The notes under the pieces were generated by a model that searched no databases, was not told the origin of the DNA, and worked only from the letters and a program-made list of their open reading frames with translations. Below are positions 232-19,840 of a DNA stretch of 20,712 nt, one piece after another. Numbering within the stretch: the first letter of the stretch is position 1; the number at the start of each line of letters is the position of its first letter. Source of the stretch: a virus; the IMG/VR virus record IMGVR_UViG_3300043465_000529, positions 1 through 20,712 of that record. One strand, written 5' to 3'. The translations under genes and the position numbers were made by a program.

Positions 232-1608
232 ATGATCGAGCAGACGATTCTCTCGCACCTCGCGTACAACGAAGAGTACTCTAGAAAAGTCTTACCATTC
301 TTGAAAGAGGAGTACTTCGTAGATCCGTCTCATAAGATCACGTTCAAGTTGGTCGACGCCTACATCAACAAGTACAATGGTCTTCCCTCTAAGGAAGCCA
401 TCCTCATTGAATTAGGCAACGCCTCGGGTCTCAATGAGACAGGCTTCAAGGCGGCTAAGGAAGTAGTCGAGAGTCTGTCTCGCGACGAGACTGGAATGGA
501 CTGGCTGATCGACACGACCGAGAAGTTCTGTCAGGACAAGGCCCTCTACAACGCCGTGTCTAAGTCCATTCAGATCATGGATGGCACCGACAAGAGCTTC
601 GACAAGGGCATGATTCCGAAGGTGCTGCAGGACGCCTTGGCAGTCACCTTCGACAACTCGGTCGGCCACGACTACCTCGAGGACTTCGATCAGCGCTACG
701 ACTTCTATCATCGCAAGGAGGCGAGGCTGCCTTTCGATCTCAACTACATGAACGAGATCACTAATGGCGGCATACCGGCCAAGACGCTCAACATCATCCT
801 GGCAGGCACCGGTGTAGGTAAGACGATGTTCATGTGTCATTGCGCAGCGGGTAACCTGACTCTGGGCAGGAACGTGTTGTACATAACGATGGAGATGGCC
901 GAGGAAGAGATCGCTAAGCGCATCGACGCCAATCTCATGAACGTCCCTCTAGACGAGCTGCTCGTGTTGCCTCGCGAGACTTATCGCACTAAGGTGAAGA
1001 AAGTACGAGAGAAGACCGTCGGTAAGCTGCTCATCAAGGAGTATCCTACTGCCTCGGCCTCTGCTCATCACTTCAGGGCACTACTCAACGAGCTGGCGCT
1101 GAAGAAGAACTTCGTGCCCGACATCATCTACATCGACTACCTCAACATCTGCGCGAGCTCTCGCATCAAGCCTGGCGCTAACGTCAACTCGTACACCTAC
1201 ATCAAGAGCATCGCCGAGGAGTTGCGCGGCCTCGCAGTGGAGTTCAAGCTGCCGATCGTGTCTGCCACGCAGACTACTCGTACTGGTTACTCATCGTCGG
1301 ACGTAGAACTGACCGACACCTCTGAGTCGTTCGGTCTACCTGCCACGGCCGACTTCATGATCGCTCTCATCTCTACCGAGGAGCTGGCCGACATGGGACA
1401 GATCATGGTGAAGCAGTTGAAGAATCGATACGGCGATCCTAACAAGTTCAAGCGATTCGTGATCGGAGTGGACAGGGCTAAGATGAAGTTCTACGACGTA
1501 GAGCAGGGAGCCCAAGAGAACTTGCTCGAGGGCCCCGTGTTCGATCGTACTGACATGGGTAGAGAGACTAATCAGTCCCTCAAAGATAAGTTAAAGATGT
1601 TGGTCTAA
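232..1608 (+). CDS. 41: Replicative DNA helicase, DnaB/gp41 family
   Basis: This 458-residue protein is the hexameric 5'-3' helicase of the T4-type replisome, which unwinds the fork and works with the gp61 primase. The N-terminal part (about 1-150) is helical and variable, as in gp41. The RecA-like core carries a clear Walker A, GTGVGKT at 192-198, and a Walker B ending in IIYIDY with Asp302. Further on, SATQTTR matches the DnaB-type sensor region. Length is close to T4 gp41 (475 residues). I chose ATG 232 over a TTG at 220 because GGAG (222-225) sits six bases before it. A gp61-type primase lies at 16571, so the two partners are in the same window but not adjacent. The stop overlaps the end of the convergent gene by 4 bp. 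Confidence 0.92.
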   Translation: MIEQTILSHLAYNEEYSRKVLPFLKEEYFVDPSHKITFKLVDAYINKYNGLPSKEAILIELGNASGLNETGFKAAKEVVESLSRDETGMDWLIDTTEKFCQDKALYNAVSKSIQIMDGTDKSFDKGMIPKVLQDALAVTFDNSVGHDYLEDFDQRYDFYHRKEARLPFDLNYMNEITNGGIPAKTLNIILAGTGVGKTMFMCHCAAGNLTLGRNVLYITMEMAEEEIAKRIDANLMNVPLDELLVLPRETYRTKVKKVREKTVGKLLIKEYPTASASAHHFRALLNELALKKNFVPDIIYIDYLNICASSRIKPGANVNSYTYIKSIAEELRGLAVEFKLPIVSATQTTRTGYSSSDVELTDTSESFGLPATADFMIALISTEELADMGQIMVKQLKNRYGDPNKFKRFVIGVDRAKMKFYDVEQGAQENLLEGPVFDRTDMGRETNQSLKDKLKMLV

Positions 1609-2111
1609 GAGAACATGAACTTAGCTCGCCAGTCTTGCTTCTCCTCTTCGGATAACAAGTCTGTCACACTCATCCAACTGAGCATGAGTCCCTTCTCTCT
1701 GCCGTGGGCTTCTATCTCCCACGGCAGGTCCCAGTAGGGTACCTTCTCGTCATTGACCCACTCTTTACGATTCCACTTGTGGAGGTTGCACTCCTTCAGT
1801 GACTGGAAGAGTTCTCCCTTAGCGTACTGCTTCACGTGAACCATCTCGTGCATGACACACAGGATCGTCAGGAATGGGTTGATGTTCTTGTCTACAAAGA
1901 TAGTGAATACACGTCCACGGAGATGATTGTCCATCCACTCCATCTGGGCCACGTCTCCCGTCTCGTCCATCAATTTGGAGTCGAACTTGACGGAGATCTC
2001 GAGATTCTCGAGGATCCTCTTGTCAAAGAAATTCGCGGCAACATGCTTTACGGCATCACGAACGAGCGCCTTCATGCGCTTAGTGCTCGAACCGTACACT
2101 TTTATGAGCAT
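1605..2111 (-). CDS. SprT-like zinc metalloprotease domain protein
   Basis: The product has 168 residues. It carries HEMVH at 88-92, the HExxH zinc-binding and catalytic motif, and PWEIEAHGRE at 130-139, where Glu134 or His136 could be the third ligand. Small SprT-like proteins of this layout are common in T4-like phages; their substrates are unknown, though the cellular family removes DNA-protein crosslinks. ATG 2111 is preferred over one at 2138 because AAGGAAGG lies five bases before it. It is the only complete leftward gene in the window, has its own exact TATAAATA late promoter at 2142-2149, and meets the helicase gene tail to tail with a 4-bp overlap (1605-1608). Late expression in the opposite direction to the helicase gene could produce antisense RNA to gene 41 if there is no stop in between. 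Confidence 0.82.
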   Translation of the reverse strand: MLIKVYGSSTKRMKALVRDAVKHVAANFFDKRILENLEISVKFDSKLMDETGDVAQMEWMDNHLRGRVFTIFVDKNINPFLTILCVMHEMVHVKQYAKGELFQSLKECNLHKWNRKEWVNDEKVPYWDLPWEIEAHGREKGLMLSWMSVTDLLSEEEKQDWRAKFMFS

Positions 2112-2141
2112 GATTTCCTTCCTTGGGTTGGCAGGCATCAG

Positions 2142-2425: not shown

Positions 2426-2517
2426 GGGCGTGTGGCCAGGTGGCCCGGAGGGACTTATAAACCCTTTAGCACTAGATTGGTGTTCTCGCTAGGGTTCGAA
2501 TCCCTACACGCCTACCA
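2426..2517 (+). tRNA. Class II tRNA (long variable arm), anticodon by position UAU
   Basis: The gene is 92 nt with an encoded CCA. Acceptor GGGCGTG pairs with CACGCCT, starting with a G-U pair, and the T arm is a perfect TAGGG/CCCTA stem around TTCGAAT. The variable arm is long, with a CACTA-GAT-TGGTG stem, as in Leu, Ser and Tyr tRNAs. The anticodon arm is odd: AGGGA/ACCCT has an A-A mismatch at the loop-closing pair and the seven-base loop CTTATAA reads TAT (Ile AUA), which does not fit a class II body. Read instead as a 9-nt loop closed by GAGGG/CCCTT, the anticodon is undefined. The D arm pairs poorly. The gene is real in outline, but its amino acid cannot be assigned. Confidence 0.7.
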
Positions 2518-2522
2518 ACAAA

Positions 2523-2598
2523 GCCCCCTTAGCCCAGCGGCAGAGGCGAGCGACTTAAAATCGCTTCAGGGTCAGTTCGAATCTGACAGGGGGTACCA
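2523..2598 (+). tRNA. tRNA with UAA anticodon (Leu codon UUA) on a class I body
   Basis: The gene is 76 nt with CCA encoded. Acceptor GCCCCCT/AGGGGGT is paired throughout (G1-U72), the D stem is GCC/GGC, the anticodon stem AGCGA/TCGCT is perfect, and loop CTTAAAA gives anticodon TAA. The T stem is GTCAG/CTGAC around TTCGAAT. The anticodon says leucine, but the variable loop is only five bases (TCAGG), whereas bacterial tRNA-Leu normally has a long arm. The fold is good throughout, so this is probably a functional tRNA, possibly one charged in an unusual way. It lies five bases after the previous tRNA. Confidence 0.85.
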
Positions 2599-2601
2599 AT
2601 A

Positions 2602-2676
2602 GCGCCTGTAGCTTAAAGGTGAAGCTGACAGCTCATAACTGTCTGAGTGTAGGTTCGAGTCCTACCGGGCGCACCA
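2602..2676 (+). tRNA. tRNA with CAU anticodon (elongator Met or Ile2)
   Basis: The gene is 75 nt with CCA encoded. Acceptor GCGCCTG/CGGGCGC is fully paired, so it is not an initiator tRNA, which would have an unpaired position 1-72. The D arm is GCTT/AAGC, the anticodon stem is GACAG/CTGTC with loop CTCATAA, and the T arm is GTAGG/CCTAC. CAT may read AUG (Met) or, if C34 becomes lysidine, AUA (Ile). It lies three bases after the preceding tRNA, so the three are probably cut from one transcript. Confidence 0.92.
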
Positions 2677-2914: not shown

Positions 2915-3114
2915 ATAAGGTAGAGCTCTCGACATTCTACTCCGACGACATGAACCTCAAGGCTATCGTCTACTACAATAGAGAGGCGAAGCACATCGAG
3001 GTCGACTATATAAAGAACGACTTGGTCATAGCGACTGAGTCCTACGAAGGACACAGCGAGCAGTACCATGAAGACGCCGCAGAGAACTACGTAATGGGGA
3101 TCAAGAAGTTATGA
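2911..3114 (+). CDS. Small phage protein of unknown function
   Basis: A 67-residue product that starts at GTG 2911 inside the previous stop (GTGA) and ends at a TGA that overlaps the next start (ATGA, 3111-3114). Such tight coupling on both sides is good evidence that it is a real gene. The first half looks like beta strands (LKAIVYYNREAKHIEVDYI) and the second half like a helix rich in acidic and aromatic residues (YHEDAAENYVMGIKKL). It has no cysteine motif, membrane segment or known fold that I recognise. It forms an operon with the membrane protein before it and the sugar-transfer fusion protein after it. Confidence 0.75.
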   Translation: MNKVELSTFYSDDMNLKAIVYYNREAKHIEVDYIKNDLVIATESYEGHSEQYHEDAAENYVMGIKKL

Positions 3115-4412
3115 AACTGGGTAAGGCATACATCCTATACATCGACACTGAGAAGTCGAGAGAGTACGCGAAGGAGTGCGAGGCCTCGTGTGTGAAGTAC
3201 GGCGTGGAGCACGAGATGTTCGAGGGCTTCATGGGTCTCACCATCGAAGCCCTTGCCGAGAAGACCGGATGGAAGATCGGCCGCGAGGGCATCGAAGAGA
3301 ACGATCGTCAGTACGTAAAGGAGTACAACGCTGCCCTCGGTCACATCGAGATCTGGCGTAAGATCGCAGCTGGAACAGAGGCCGGCATCGTCTTAGAACA
3401 CGACGCGATCGTCAAGGAAGACTACACTCACCTCGAGGTCCGCGACGATCAGATCCTGCACCTCGGCCCGCGCCTCGACTATGCCGGCGACTACGAGTTT
3501 CCGGACCTACCAGACGAGTACCTAGAGGCTCGTCGCCATGAGGGTGCACACGCCTACGCGCTGACTCCTAATACAGCCCGCTTCTTGTTAGACAAGATCG
3601 AGGAAGAGAAGAGGCTGCTGCCGACCGAGGCCTTGATCAGCGTACGTAACAGGTACGATCTGGAGTTCTTGGAGATCGATCCGCCGTACGTAGTCTGCGC
3701 CATCGGCGACCGCGAGTCCTTCACACACCACGACGCGGTGACTGACAAGCAGAACTTCAGGCACAATCCCGGCTTCGTCGCCGGTCTCACACGACCGGAT
3801 GCACTGAATAACTATCGCATGATGGACTACAAGTTCGGCGAGGACTGGTTCAGCGGTAACATCGAGAACTGGAAGAGCATCTTCGTCGAGACTAATAAGA
3901 AGAACGGCGATCTATTGAAGATCCTCGAGATCGGCTGCTTCGAGGGCCGAGCGACTACCTGGCTTCTCGACAATATGATGGATCATCCAGAGAGTCTGAT
4001 CTATTGCATCGACACCTTCAAGGGAAGCCACGAGCACGATCCCAGCCAAGTCAACAAGATGGAGCAGAAGTTCCAGTTCAATATGGGAGTCTCCCGCTGG
4101 CCTGAGAAAGTTCGCCTGCTGAAGGGCGACTCGAGGTTCGTACTTCCTGCTTTGTGCAGGGACAATCGAGCTTTCGACATCATCTACGTGGACGGCTCGC
4201 ACGCCACTCTGGACGTGGTCAATGACGGCATCTACTCGCTGCATCTCTTGAAACCAGGCGGCGTCATCATATTCGACGACTACAAGTGGACAGACCCGAT
4301 CTTCGGCAACCAGCCGGTGATGAAGGCAGTCGACTTCTTGGATCGTAGCTATCCTAAATACATGAAGAGAATTCATGACGGATGGCAGCGCGCGTATCAC
4401 AAGGCCCCTTAG
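3111..4412 (+). CDS. Fusion of GT25-family glycosyltransferase and SAM-dependent methyltransferase
   Basis: The 433-residue protein has two parts. Residues 1-225 resemble family 25 glycosyltransferases (LPS and collagen galactosyltransferase type): KAYILYIDTEKS at the start, NAALGHIEIWRKI at 73-85, then IVLEHDAIV at 93-101, where EHD replaces the usual E/D-D-D metal site, and GAHAYALT at 145-152. Residues 245-433 form a class I methyltransferase of the Methyltransf_24 type: SAM loop EIGCFEGR at 273-280, acidic Asp301, IIYVDGSH at 357-364 and KPGGVIIFDD at 381-390. The protein may glycosylate and methylate a phage structural glycan, phage DNA or a host surface sugar; the sequence does not say which. 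Start ATG 3111 overlaps the previous stop. Its own stop (4410-4412) lies inside the following tRNA-Arg gene. Confidence 0.85.
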   Translation: MKLGKAYILYIDTEKSREYAKECEASCVKYGVEHEMFEGFMGLTIEALAEKTGWKIGREGIEENDRQYVKEYNAALGHIEIWRKIAAGTEAGIVLEHDAIVKEDYTHLEVRDDQILHLGPRLDYAGDYEFPDLPDEYLEARRHEGAHAYALTPNTARFLLDKIEEEKRLLPTEALISVRNRYDLEFLEIDPPYVVCAIGDRESFTHHDAVTDKQNFRHNPGFVAGLTRPDALNNYRMMDYKFGEDWFSGNIENWKSIFVETNKKNGDLLKILEIGCFEGRATTWLLDNMMDHPESLIYCIDTFKGSHEHDPSQVNKMEQKFQFNMGVSRWPEKVRLLKGDSRFVLPALCRDNRAFDIIYVDGSHATLDVVNDGIYSLHLLKPGGVIIFDDYKWTDPIFGNQPVMKAVDFLDRSYPKYMKRIHDGWQRAYHKAP

Positions 4413-4478
4413 CTCAGCGGATAGAGCAACAGCCTTCTAAGCTGTGGGTCGGAGGTTCGAGTCCTCCAGGGGTCGCCA
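4403..4478 (+). tRNA. tRNA-Arg (anticodon UCU)
   Basis: The gene is 76 nt with CCA encoded and discriminator G73. Acceptor GGCCCCT/AGGGGTC pairs with one G-U, the D arm is GCTC/GAGC, the anticodon stem is ACAGC/GCTGT with loop CTTCTAA (TCT, reading AGA), and the T arm is GGAGG/CCTCC around TTCGAGT. The first ten bases (4403-4412) are also the last codons and stop of the fusion gene before it. 5' processing by RNase P would therefore cut inside that mRNA. Confidence 0.95.
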
Positions 4479-17626: not shown

Positions 17627-19840
17627 ATGTATACTGACACACGTAAGCTATTGTCCGACGCTAAGTTCTATGAGTCCTACTCTAGATACGACGAAGACAA
17701 GGGACGCTACGAGACCTGGGATGAAGCCGTAGAGCGAGTGATGAATATGCATCGCGACTTCTACAAGGACAAGATGACTCCGAAGCTCGCCGAGTACATC
17801 GCGTTCGCGGAGGCCGCCTACAAAGACAAGCTCGTACTCGGAGCTCAGCGCGCCTTGCAGTTCGGCGGCGATCAGCTGCTCAAGCACCAGATGAAGATGT
17901 ACAACTGTACTTCGTCTTATGCCGATCGCGCTTCATTCTTTGGAGAGATCTTCTACATCCTGTTGTGCGGCGCAGGCGCCGGCTTCTCGGTGCAGAGGCA
18001 TCACGTCGACAAGATCCCAGTGATCGCTCCGAGGACGAAGCAGCCGAAGACTCACGTCGTCGAGGACTCCATCGAGGGATGGGCCACGGCGCTTGACGTG
18101 TTGATGTCGAGCTTCTTCAAAGACGGGGGTAAATATCCAGAGTACGCAGGACGCAAGGTGTACTTCGACTTGAATCAGATCAGGCCGAAGGGCGCGAAGA
18201 TCTCTGGTGGCTTCATGGCGCCAGGACCGGATCCTCTCCGCAGAGCACTCGACCGCATCGAGCACCTCCTGACCAGCATGGTCCTCATGTCTGAGAAGGA
18301 AGCGAAGATGAGGCCGGTCCACGTGTACGACATCGTGATGCACGCAGCCGACGCCGTGTTGTCGGGTGGTGTGCGTCGATCGGCGACCATCTGCCTATTC
18401 TCCCCTGATGACGAGGAGATGGCCAAGGCCAAGACGGGCAACTGGTTCATCGATAATCCGCAGCGTGGACGCTCGAACAACTCCGCAGTCATCGTTCGAA
18501 AGACCACAAGCAAAGAGCAATTCATGCAATTGATGCAGAGCATCAAGCAGTTCGGTGAGCCCGGCTTCGTATTCGTCGAGTCCACCGAGCACACGACTAA
18601 TCCATGCGTCGAAATCGGGATGTACCCGCAGATCGACGGCAAGTCGGGGTGGCAGGGATGCAACCTGACTGAGATCAACGGAGGAATGTGTTCCGACGAA
18701 GAGACTTTCCAGAGGGCCTGCAAGGCAGCGTCCATCCTGGGAACTCTCCAGGCCGGCTACACTAACTTCAAGTTCTTGGACGAGACGAGCAAGCAGATCT
18801 TCGATAGGGAGGCGCTGCTTGGCGTCTCCATTACGGGTTGGATGAACAACCCGAGGACGCTGTTCGATGAAAAGATCCTCGAAGCCGGAGCCACCACAGT
18901 ACGATCCACAAATAGGACTGTGGCTGCTCTTATTGGTACTAATCCCGCTGCTAGGACCACTTGCGTTAAACCTAGTGGCAACGCTTCTGTGCTTCTTATG
19001 ACTGCGTCGGGTATCCACGCGGATCACTCGCCCATGTACATTCGCAACATCCAGCTGAACAAGGACACAGAGGTCGCGCGTCTCATCAAGAAGCTGAACC
19101 CGCACATGGTAGAGGAGTCGGTGTGGTCTGCCGGCAGGACTGACTACGTCGTGTCATTCCCGGTCGTACCGAAGAAGGGCTCGCTGTACAAGGACGACAC
19201 CATCGGCATCAAGCACCTCGAACTGATCGCCAAGGCGCAGAAGCACTGGGTCAACGCCGGCACGGACGAGAAGCTCTGCGCAGACGAGGGCATCCGTCAC
19301 AACGTGTCTAACACAGTCATCGTGGACGACTGGGACGAGGTGGCCGAGTACGTATACGAGAATCGCGCCAACTTCGCTGGCATCTCGTTCCTCGCTATGA
19401 CCGGTGACAAGGACTACGCTCAGGCCCCGAACACGAAGGTGATCGACGCCAAAGAGATCGTGAAGACCTACGGCACTGGTGCGGTATTCGCCTCCGGCCT
19501 CGTGGTGGACGGACTCAAGGCGTTCGACAACCTCTGGGTGGCGTGCATGACTGCCCAGAACAGGAGCATCGACATAAGCAGCGACGACTCCAGCCTGTTG
19601 CTGAAGAAGGACTGGATTCGCCGCTTCAAGAAGTTCGCGGAGAACTACTTCAAGGGCGACGCCAAGCAGGCCGAGTACTGCCTCAAGGACGTGTTCATCC
19701 TCCACAAGTGGGAGAAGATCCAGCAGAACCTAGTCCAAGACGTGGACTGGGAGAGCAGCCTCGTGGAGAAGAAGTATATAGATGTAGATACCATGGGTGC
19801 CGCCGCGTGCGTCGGTACTGCTGATGGTTGCTTAGTCTAA
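17627..19840 (+). CDS. nrdJ: Adenosylcobalamin-dependent (class II) ribonucleotide reductase
   Basis: The 737-residue enzyme reduces ribonucleotides to deoxynucleotides with a B12-derived radical. Its length and layout are those of the monomeric Lactobacillus RTPR (739 residues). The catalytic set is present: Cys94 in MYNCTSS, then N325-P-C327-V-E329 for the radical Cys, Asn and Glu, and Cys345 in WQGCNLTEI as second redox cysteine, 18 residues after C327 rather than 11 as in RTPR. The C-terminal thiol pair is C728/C735 (ACVGTADGCLV). No ATP-cone is seen at the N-terminus. The host must supply or take up B12. T4 itself uses NrdA/NrdB, so this is a replacement. AGAGAGG precedes ATG 17627. Confidence 0.94.
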   Translation: MYTDTRKLLSDAKFYESYSRYDEDKGRYETWDEAVERVMNMHRDFYKDKMTPKLAEYIAFAEAAYKDKLVLGAQRALQFGGDQLLKHQMKMYNCTSSYADRASFFGEIFYILLCGAGAGFSVQRHHVDKIPVIAPRTKQPKTHVVEDSIEGWATALDVLMSSFFKDGGKYPEYAGRKVYFDLNQIRPKGAKISGGFMAPGPDPLRRALDRIEHLLTSMVLMSEKEAKMRPVHVYDIVMHAADAVLSGGVRRSATICLFSPDDEEMAKAKTGNWFIDNPQRGRSNNSAVIVRKTTSKEQFMQLMQSIKQFGEPGFVFVESTEHTTNPCVEIGMYPQIDGKSGWQGCNLTEINGGMCSDEETFQRACKAASILGTLQAGYTNFKFLDETSKQIFDREALLGVSITGWMNNPRTLFDEKILEAGATTVRSTNRTVAALIGTNPAARTTCVKPSGNASVLLMTASGIHADHSPMYIRNIQLNKDTEVARLIKKLNPHMVEESVWSAGRTDYVVSFPVVPKKGSLYKDDTIGIKHLELIAKAQKHWVNAGTDEKLCADEGIRHNVSNTVIVDDWDEVAEYVYENRANFAGISFLAMTGDKDYAQAPNTKVIDAKEIVKTYGTGAVFASGLVVDGLKAFDNLWVACMTAQNRSIDISSDDSSLLLKKDWIRRFKKFAENYFKGDAKQAEYCLKDVFILHKWEKIQQNLVQDVDWESSLVEKKYIDVDTMGAAACVGTADGCLV

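Follow-up and report, generated by a model that had tools for sequence, protein, structure and literature searches.

How are two adjacent phage tRNA genes to be understood when the anticodon of each seems to sit on the wrong body? The pair lies in a 20,712-nt stretch of viral DNA (IMG/VR virus record IMGVR_UViG_3300043465_000529), referred to here as the window, in which ARAGORN found four tRNA genes: Ile(tat), Leu(taa), Met(cat), and Arg(tct). The first-pass annotation had described the first as combining a long variable arm, a UAU anticodon and an A·A mismatch at the base of the anticodon loop, and the second as carrying UAA on a class I body with a five-base variable loop. ARAGORN and direct reading of the sequence bore out both descriptions, and the mismatch of body and anticodon holds for both genes; of the accompanying suggestions, degenerate genes and recoding found no support and reassigned identity is the less likely reading, as discussed below. 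An abnormal D-arm in the first gene, an adjoining CAU tRNA gene and variability of the A·A mismatch came to light in addition. Chance can be excluded as the explanation of the pair, since the pair recurs in relatives and the family of the first gene covaries strongly.

The first gene, tRNA1, occupies positions 2426 to 2517 on the plus strand, as do all its parts given here, and encodes a 92-nt class II-like tRNA-Ile(UAU), an assignment based on ARAGORN, Rfam, covariation and a covariance model (R1) built from the gene's own family. It consists of a 7-bp acceptor stem, position 8, D-arm, anticodon arm, variable arm, a 5-nt joint, T-arm, A73, and an encoded CCA. As the sequence reads, a single nucleotide separates the acceptor from the D-stem, and the D-arm (2434–2445, GGCC-AGGT-GGCC) is a miniature of 4 bp with a 4-nt loop that covaries among relatives. 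The anticodon arm (2447–2467) has a 6-bp stem, GGAGGG/CCCTTT, and a 9-nt loop, ACTTATAAA, with A·A at 31·39; the anticodon TAT (UAU) called by ARAGORN lies at 2456–2458. The arm is followed by a 17-nt variable arm containing helix 4 (2468–2484, AGCACT-AGATT-GGTGTT) and by the T-arm with helix 5 (2490–2506, TAGGG-TTCGAAT-CCCTA), in which T55 co-varies with D-loop position 18. When covariance scores were computed, as the first-pass annotation had advised, tRNA1 reached 30.5 bits with the Rfam tRNA model (RF00005), barely above the 29-bit cut-off and obtained by separate scoring, as a faster cmscan run with Rfam did not list the gene. The family model R1 gave it 101.3 bits. RNAfold found an alternative fold of the window copy that is 2.5 kcal/mol better than the cloverleaf.

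The second gene, tRNA2 (2523–2598, plus strand), is a 76-nt class I tRNA-Leu(UAA) with the 5-nt variable loop TCAGG, and clears the same Rfam cut-off at 51.2 bits. Direct reading gave an anticodon stem of AGCGA/TCGCT and the loop CTTAAAA on an otherwise ordinary class I cloverleaf. Bacterial leucine tRNAs have class II bodies, and with its short variable loop tRNA2 lacks this feature. Directly downstream, tRNA3 (2602–2676, plus strand) carries a CAU anticodon and was called Met(cat) by ARAGORN, but has features of the lysidine-type tRNA-Ile2 (C4-G69, C5-G68, U12-A23, C29-G41, A73 and the loop CTCATAA, by direct reading), and to judge from these it is probably tRNA-Ile2 rather than tRNA-Met. 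The identity rules behind this call are in part general background and in part from the literature (PMC9976931). The fourth gene, tRNA-Arg(UCU) (4403–4478, plus strand), is canonical (ARAGORN; Rfam, 68.4 bits) and overlaps the final 10 bases of an ORF (3111–4412) with a methyltransferase domain and a weak glycosyltransferase 25 match. Elsewhere, the window encodes a protein with an HEMVH motif, a possible zinc metallopeptidase with no Pfam match (1605–2138, minus strand), and a B12-type ribonucleotide reductase (17627–19840) with 62% identity to that of Rhizobium phage RHph_I1_18; a search of that phage with the family model found no member of the tRNA1 family.

Comparison with related phages had also been proposed. 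Two relatives reached through the DnaB-like helicase of the window (contigs L003 and L004) carry the same tRNA trio, and the L003 copy of tRNA1, whose helicase is 80% identical, differs at two bases that together form a compensatory change in the D-stem (GGCC/GGCC to GGTC/GACC). The exact tRNA1 core was found in 12 contigs and a 17-base core in 41, each a complete tRNA-like RNA. A relaxed pattern, limited to the joint and a portion of the variable arm and leaving acceptor, D-arm, anticodon and T-loop free, matched at least 120 IMG/VR contigs with at least 63 distinct sequences, all tRNA-shaped. Although the anticodon was unconstrained in this search, it was UAU in 63 of 63 sequences among the matches listed. 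Together with the earlier matches, the family comprises at least 68 distinct sequence variants in IMG/VR. In the main search with R1, members scored about 60 bits or more and the best ordinary tRNAs 33; the best-scoring ordinary tRNA, in the window and several relatives, was the CAU gene with Ile2 features. A divergent member (L065) has a variable arm of its own and the same anticodon and scored 59.8 bits. T4-type gp23 capsid genes accompany family members in 8 of 19 records, one member sits on a 376-kb contig, and another tRNA lies within 1 kb at 81 of 99 distinct family loci. Among these contigs, ARAGORN called stop-reading anticodons in L241, L249, L247 and L222 (cta as Pyl, tca as SeC), which are possible suppressor tRNAs. 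A bacterial origin was also considered; in GTDB genomes the exact pattern gave no match and the relaxed pattern three, which we read as chance because the flanking sequence was not tRNA-like.

The 68-variant alignment supports the cloverleaf in all its parts. Its 28 pairs are formed in 99.1% of cells, and 20 of the 28 have changed on both sides. Double-change cells numbered 274 as compared with 63 in shuffles, counts that overstate the number of independent events since the variants are kin and the search pattern set some variable-arm columns. The covariation score was 0.497 vs. 0.164 for shuffled alignments, none of 500 shuffles scored as high, and shifting the partners by 1–3 columns abolished the signal. 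All five helices vary, four of them unconstrained by the pattern that found most members. Within the 6-bp helix of the variable arm, three inner pairs covary and three outer ones are invariant, the latter partly because the search pattern fixed them; the long, stem-forming arm places the family in class II. U33, the anticodon U34-A35-U36, A37 and A73 are found in 68 of 68 variants, an Ile anticodon with A37 and A73 being what is expected of a tRNA-Ile, and the compensatory cloverleaf together with A73 and a CCA end (encoded in 66 of 68) identifies these RNAs as tRNAs. Members lacking an encoded CCA, which would need CCA addition, are L144:648-738, L206:8785-8876 and those of phages S-SRM01 and S-SKS1. 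By energy folding, the cloverleaf lay within 3 kcal/mol of the minimum for 63 of 68 variants. G1·U72 is a wobble pair in 47 of 68; tRNA2 shares this wobble, as do the ordinary UAU tRNAs of S-PM2 and S-CREM1.

The departures from the standard fold are themselves conserved. The D-stem occurs as GGCC/GGCC, GGTC/GACC, GTGT/ACAC, GCGT/ACGC, or GACT/AGTC, with loops of 3–4 nt. A D-loop GG goes with UC at T-loop positions 55–56 in 58 of 58 variants and a D-loop AG with GC in 10 of 10; positions 18 and 55 thus co-vary (G18/U55 or A18/G55) while 19-56 stays G-C, suggesting that the elbow contact is kept. The anticodon stem is shifted upward, positions 25–30 pairing with 40–45 in place of a stem that extends to 31-39. 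Of the 68 variants, 24 can pair 31 with 39, 17 by a Watson-Crick pair and 7 by G·U, and the other 44 are open there; the A·A noted in the window copy occurs in 27 of 68 and is no fixed feature of the family. The paired variants also settle the register of the anticodon, for readings of the 9-nt loop as UUA (stop) or AUA were rejected because a paired 31-39 leaves a 7-nt loop with UAU at 34–36.

For tRNA2, the loci examined held 29 distinct class I Leu(UAA) sequences, including those of the cultured phages P59, 16Q, S-SRM01, S-SKS1, and S-CBWM1; class I genes for Leu(CAA) and Leu(UAG) were present as well, and in phage wV8 two tRNA-Leu genes with anticodons other than UAA are class I. Because of these sequences and the class I Leu genes of cultured phages, tRNA2 is a recurrent phage form and no mismatch peculiar to this window, and its degeneracy is unlikely. 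In some phages of the tRNA1 family, all Leu tRNAs found are class I. L238, L239, L241 and L244 have near-complete tRNA arrays; the Leu tRNAs found in them are without exception class I (77 nt), and the Ser and Tyr tRNAs retain long arms. A strict swap of bodies between Ile and Leu genes was considered and is not general, as some family phages have a class II Leu(UAA); L242 carries one in the same neighbourhood, in the order Arg(tct)-Leu(taa)-CAU.

BLAST searches from a consensus member and then from the S-SRM01 copy revealed members in five cultured phages: the Synechococcus phages S-SRM01 (80.3 bits), S-SKS1 (70.0), S-CBWM1 (65.1) and S-CRM01 (46.0), and Acinetobacter phage Acj61 (47.9). The weakest matches, S-CRM01 and Acj61, are based on the model and on reading of the sequence; the S-CRM01 member has a longer D-loop and partly overlaps the end of a hypothetical gene. 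The records of these five phages hold no tRNA annotation at the family members, and the published list of 11 tRNAs of S-SRM01 does not include its member (PMC8557907). In Acj61, a gene directly before the member (L292:497-571) is annotated only as 'similar to tRNA' and was called Trp(cca) by ARAGORN. Phage S-PM2 carries, in order, a 75-nt class I Ile(UAU), a CAU tRNA and an 86-nt class II Leu(UAA), and in the trio of S-SKS1 and S-SRM01 the Ile(UAU) is of the family type and the Leu(UAA) is class I. The same decoding set therefore exists on both kinds of body. This comparison is our main argument, and it suggests that the anticodons tell the function and that decoding roles are unchanged between the S-PM2-type trio and that of the window, because the orthologous S-PM2 genes carry the same anticodons on ordinary bodies.

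Codon meaning is in line with the anticodons. In the window, AUA accounts for 59 of 319 Ile codons (18%). AUA sites aligned with Ile in homologues at 0.49–0.51, compared with 0.46–0.60 for AUU and AUC, and UUA sites aligned with Leu at 0.57–0.64, values that carry some noise from the use of six-frame ORFs with hits. The Leu anticodon and the Leu at UUA sites identify tRNA2 as tRNA-Leu. The recoding proposed earlier, whether of stop or sense codons, thus finds no support in codon usage or site alignments. Both a family RNA and an Ile2-type CAU tRNA are present in L240, L242, L243, L246, L247 and the window. In a phage cluster that includes L104, L127, L238, L241 and L244, with 16–27 tRNA genes on a contig, the DNA examined (fragments) holds a single CAU tRNA without Ile2 features, which leaves the family RNA as the one reader of AUA found there. 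Ile2 genes were recognized by C4, C5 and a first base other than U, a crude criterion that may miss real ones and that called an extra gene Ile2 in L113 and L117. Phage S-CREM1, which has an ordinary UAU tRNA absent from its host, uses AUA at 16.6 per thousand and the host at 2.5 (PMC9964418).

The conserved fold, invariant anticodon, gene order and codon meaning are best accounted for if tRNA1 works as a tRNA-Ile(UAU) of the phage, built on a non-canonical scaffold and able to decode AUA without lysidine, and if tRNA2 is a class I tRNA-Leu(UAA) that reads UUA, a reading we consider probable. tRNA1 would then be expressed, charged with Ile by the host IleRS and used on the ribosome. Charging would be helped by A35, U36, t6A37 and A73, which are bacterial Ile determinants (PMC9976931), and U34 would read AUA in infected cells with no need for the lysidine on which the usual CAU tRNA depends. 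The scaffold combines the 1-nt acceptor/D-stem gap, 4-bp D-stem, 3–4-nt loop, upshifted anticodon stem, long variable arm and 5-nt joint, and its elbow would still form through 18-55 and 19-56. In 15 phage records we found no class Ia synthetase and, for TilS, only one sub-threshold, frame-broken match; these enzymes would thus have to come from the host. Several observations weigh against this reading. The UAU tRNA looks redundant in the window phage and in the many relatives with an Ile2-type CAU tRNA, although the same redundancy exists in Lactobacillus plantarum (cited in PMC9976931). Of the minor determinants for E. coli IleRS (C4-G69, U12-A23, C29-G41), the first occurs in about half of the variants (35 of 68), position 29-41 is mostly G-C, and the D-stem is too short for a 12-23 pair at the usual place. 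The alternative RNAfold structure of the window copy and a lower Ile:Leu ratio at AUA in one set of phages also count against it.

That ratio bears directly on the main rival, in which LeuRS (or SerRS) reads the body and not the anticodon, tRNA1 is charged with Leu (or Ser), and AUA is partly Leu or Ser. The class II-like body with A73 would suit such charging, and a nematode nev-tRNA-Ile(UAU) was charged only with Leu in vitro, AUA-as-Leu being theoretical there (PMC4300185). In the phages without detected Ile2, the Leu share at AUA is slightly higher, with an Ile:Leu ratio of 4.08 (interval 3.0–5.6) vs. 5.99 at AUU/AUC. However, AUA aligns with Ile far above Leu, and in the larger set the ratio equals that at AUU/AUC (5.59 vs. 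5.11). Neither the 5-nt joint nor the very small D-arm resembles those of Leu or Ser tRNAs, the Leu tRNAs of many family phages are themselves class I, and A73 is a listed antideterminant against SerRS in human tRNALeu (PMC9976931). We therefore regard Leu or Ser charging as unlikely, if the strongest of the competing accounts.

Defense is another context in which an odd tRNA body could be useful: tRNA1 and the class I Leu tRNAs might evade or decoy host tRNA-cleaving enzymes, with decoding secondary or absent. Escape from anticodon nucleases has been suggested for phage tRNAs whose anticodon loops are altered (PMC10264068). Changed recognition would be consistent with the 31·39 mismatch and the unusual body, and the redundancy with Ile2 in the window phage also speaks for this account. 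Yet the two anticodons have been preserved without change, something not required of a mere decoy, most bacteria have no UAU tRNA to imitate (PMC11938285), and there is no known target nuclease. We hold this account to be rather improbable as a rival; evasion is compatible with decoding and may be an added benefit. A role outside translation, as a regulatory or structural tRNA-like RNA, is hinted at by the extreme conservation of the anticodon and variable arms relative to the drifting acceptor and T-stems, but U33, UAU, A37, A73, the encoded CCA and the elbow covariation are requirements of translation and the genes sit in tRNA clusters, making such a role very improbable. Degenerate or dying genes, suggested by the departures from the tRNA consensus and the marginal Rfam score of tRNA1, can hardly be entertained, for compensatory changes in every helix and 68 variants with an invariant anticodon and no decay refute them for tRNA1 and the tRNA2-type Leu genes are equally widespread.

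In the open PubMed Central papers searched, no description of a tRNA1-type RNA was found. It is about an even chance that the family represents a kind of phage tRNA not described before, namely a tRNA-Ile(UAU) of class II-like build with a 3–4-nt D-loop and a tolerated A18/G55 elbow, which in some phages adjoins Leu tRNAs that have lost the class II arm. Such a tRNA would let its phages decode AUA without lysidine, or would even create a controlled ambiguity between Ile and Leu at that codon. Overlooked by current annotation, the family would show, as a widespread experiment of nature, how much deviation in a tRNA body the ribosomes and synthetases of bacteria accept. It also supplies compact orthogonal tRNA scaffolds, bears on the reason why phages carry tRNAs, and is directly testable through its members in cultured phages.

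Among known systems, the ordinary class I phage tRNA-Ile(UAU) of S-PM2 and S-CREM1 shares the anticodon, A73 and G1·U72 with tRNA1, and S-PM2 shares the gene trio Ile(UAU)-CAU-Leu(UAA) with the window; unlike tRNA1, these tRNAs are 75 and 74 nt long with a normal D-arm and a short variable loop. Allo-tRNAs, reportedly described by Mukai et al. in 2017, are class II bodies (8/4, 9/3) with odd D-arms, some of them in phages. Their acceptor and T-stems of 8/4 or 9/3 differ from the 7/5 of the tRNA1 family, where a G/A at position 8 faces a G at column 81 in 64 of 68 variants and the two cannot pair; an 8/4 fold is possible only for the window type (U8-A81) and is ruled out by the other 64. tRNA-Sec resembles tRNA1 in its 4-nt D-loop and long variable arm, but differs in its anticodon (UCA vs. 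UAU), D-stem (6 vs. 4 bp) and acceptor branch (13 vs. 12 bp). tRNA-Pyl is similar in the one nucleotide between acceptor and D-stem (G8 in D. hafniense), the small D-loop and the 6-bp anticodon stem, and some members lack G18 or the TΨC motif (PMC7609411); with CUA and a 3-nt variable loop, as opposed to UAU and a 17-nt arm, it too was rejected as an identity for tRNA1, anticodon and stems being unfit in both cases. The nematode nev-tRNA-Ile(UAU) likewise joins a class II body to UAU; it is eukaryotic, has a Leu-like variable arm, is Leu-charged in vitro, is weakly expressed and competes with the normal Ile(UAU) (PMC4300185). tRNA2, finally, matches the class I phage tRNA-Leu genes of Felixounavirus wV8, Bacillus phage P59 and Pseudomonas phage 16Q (75–78 nt, Leu anticodon, short variable loop) with no difference of importance.
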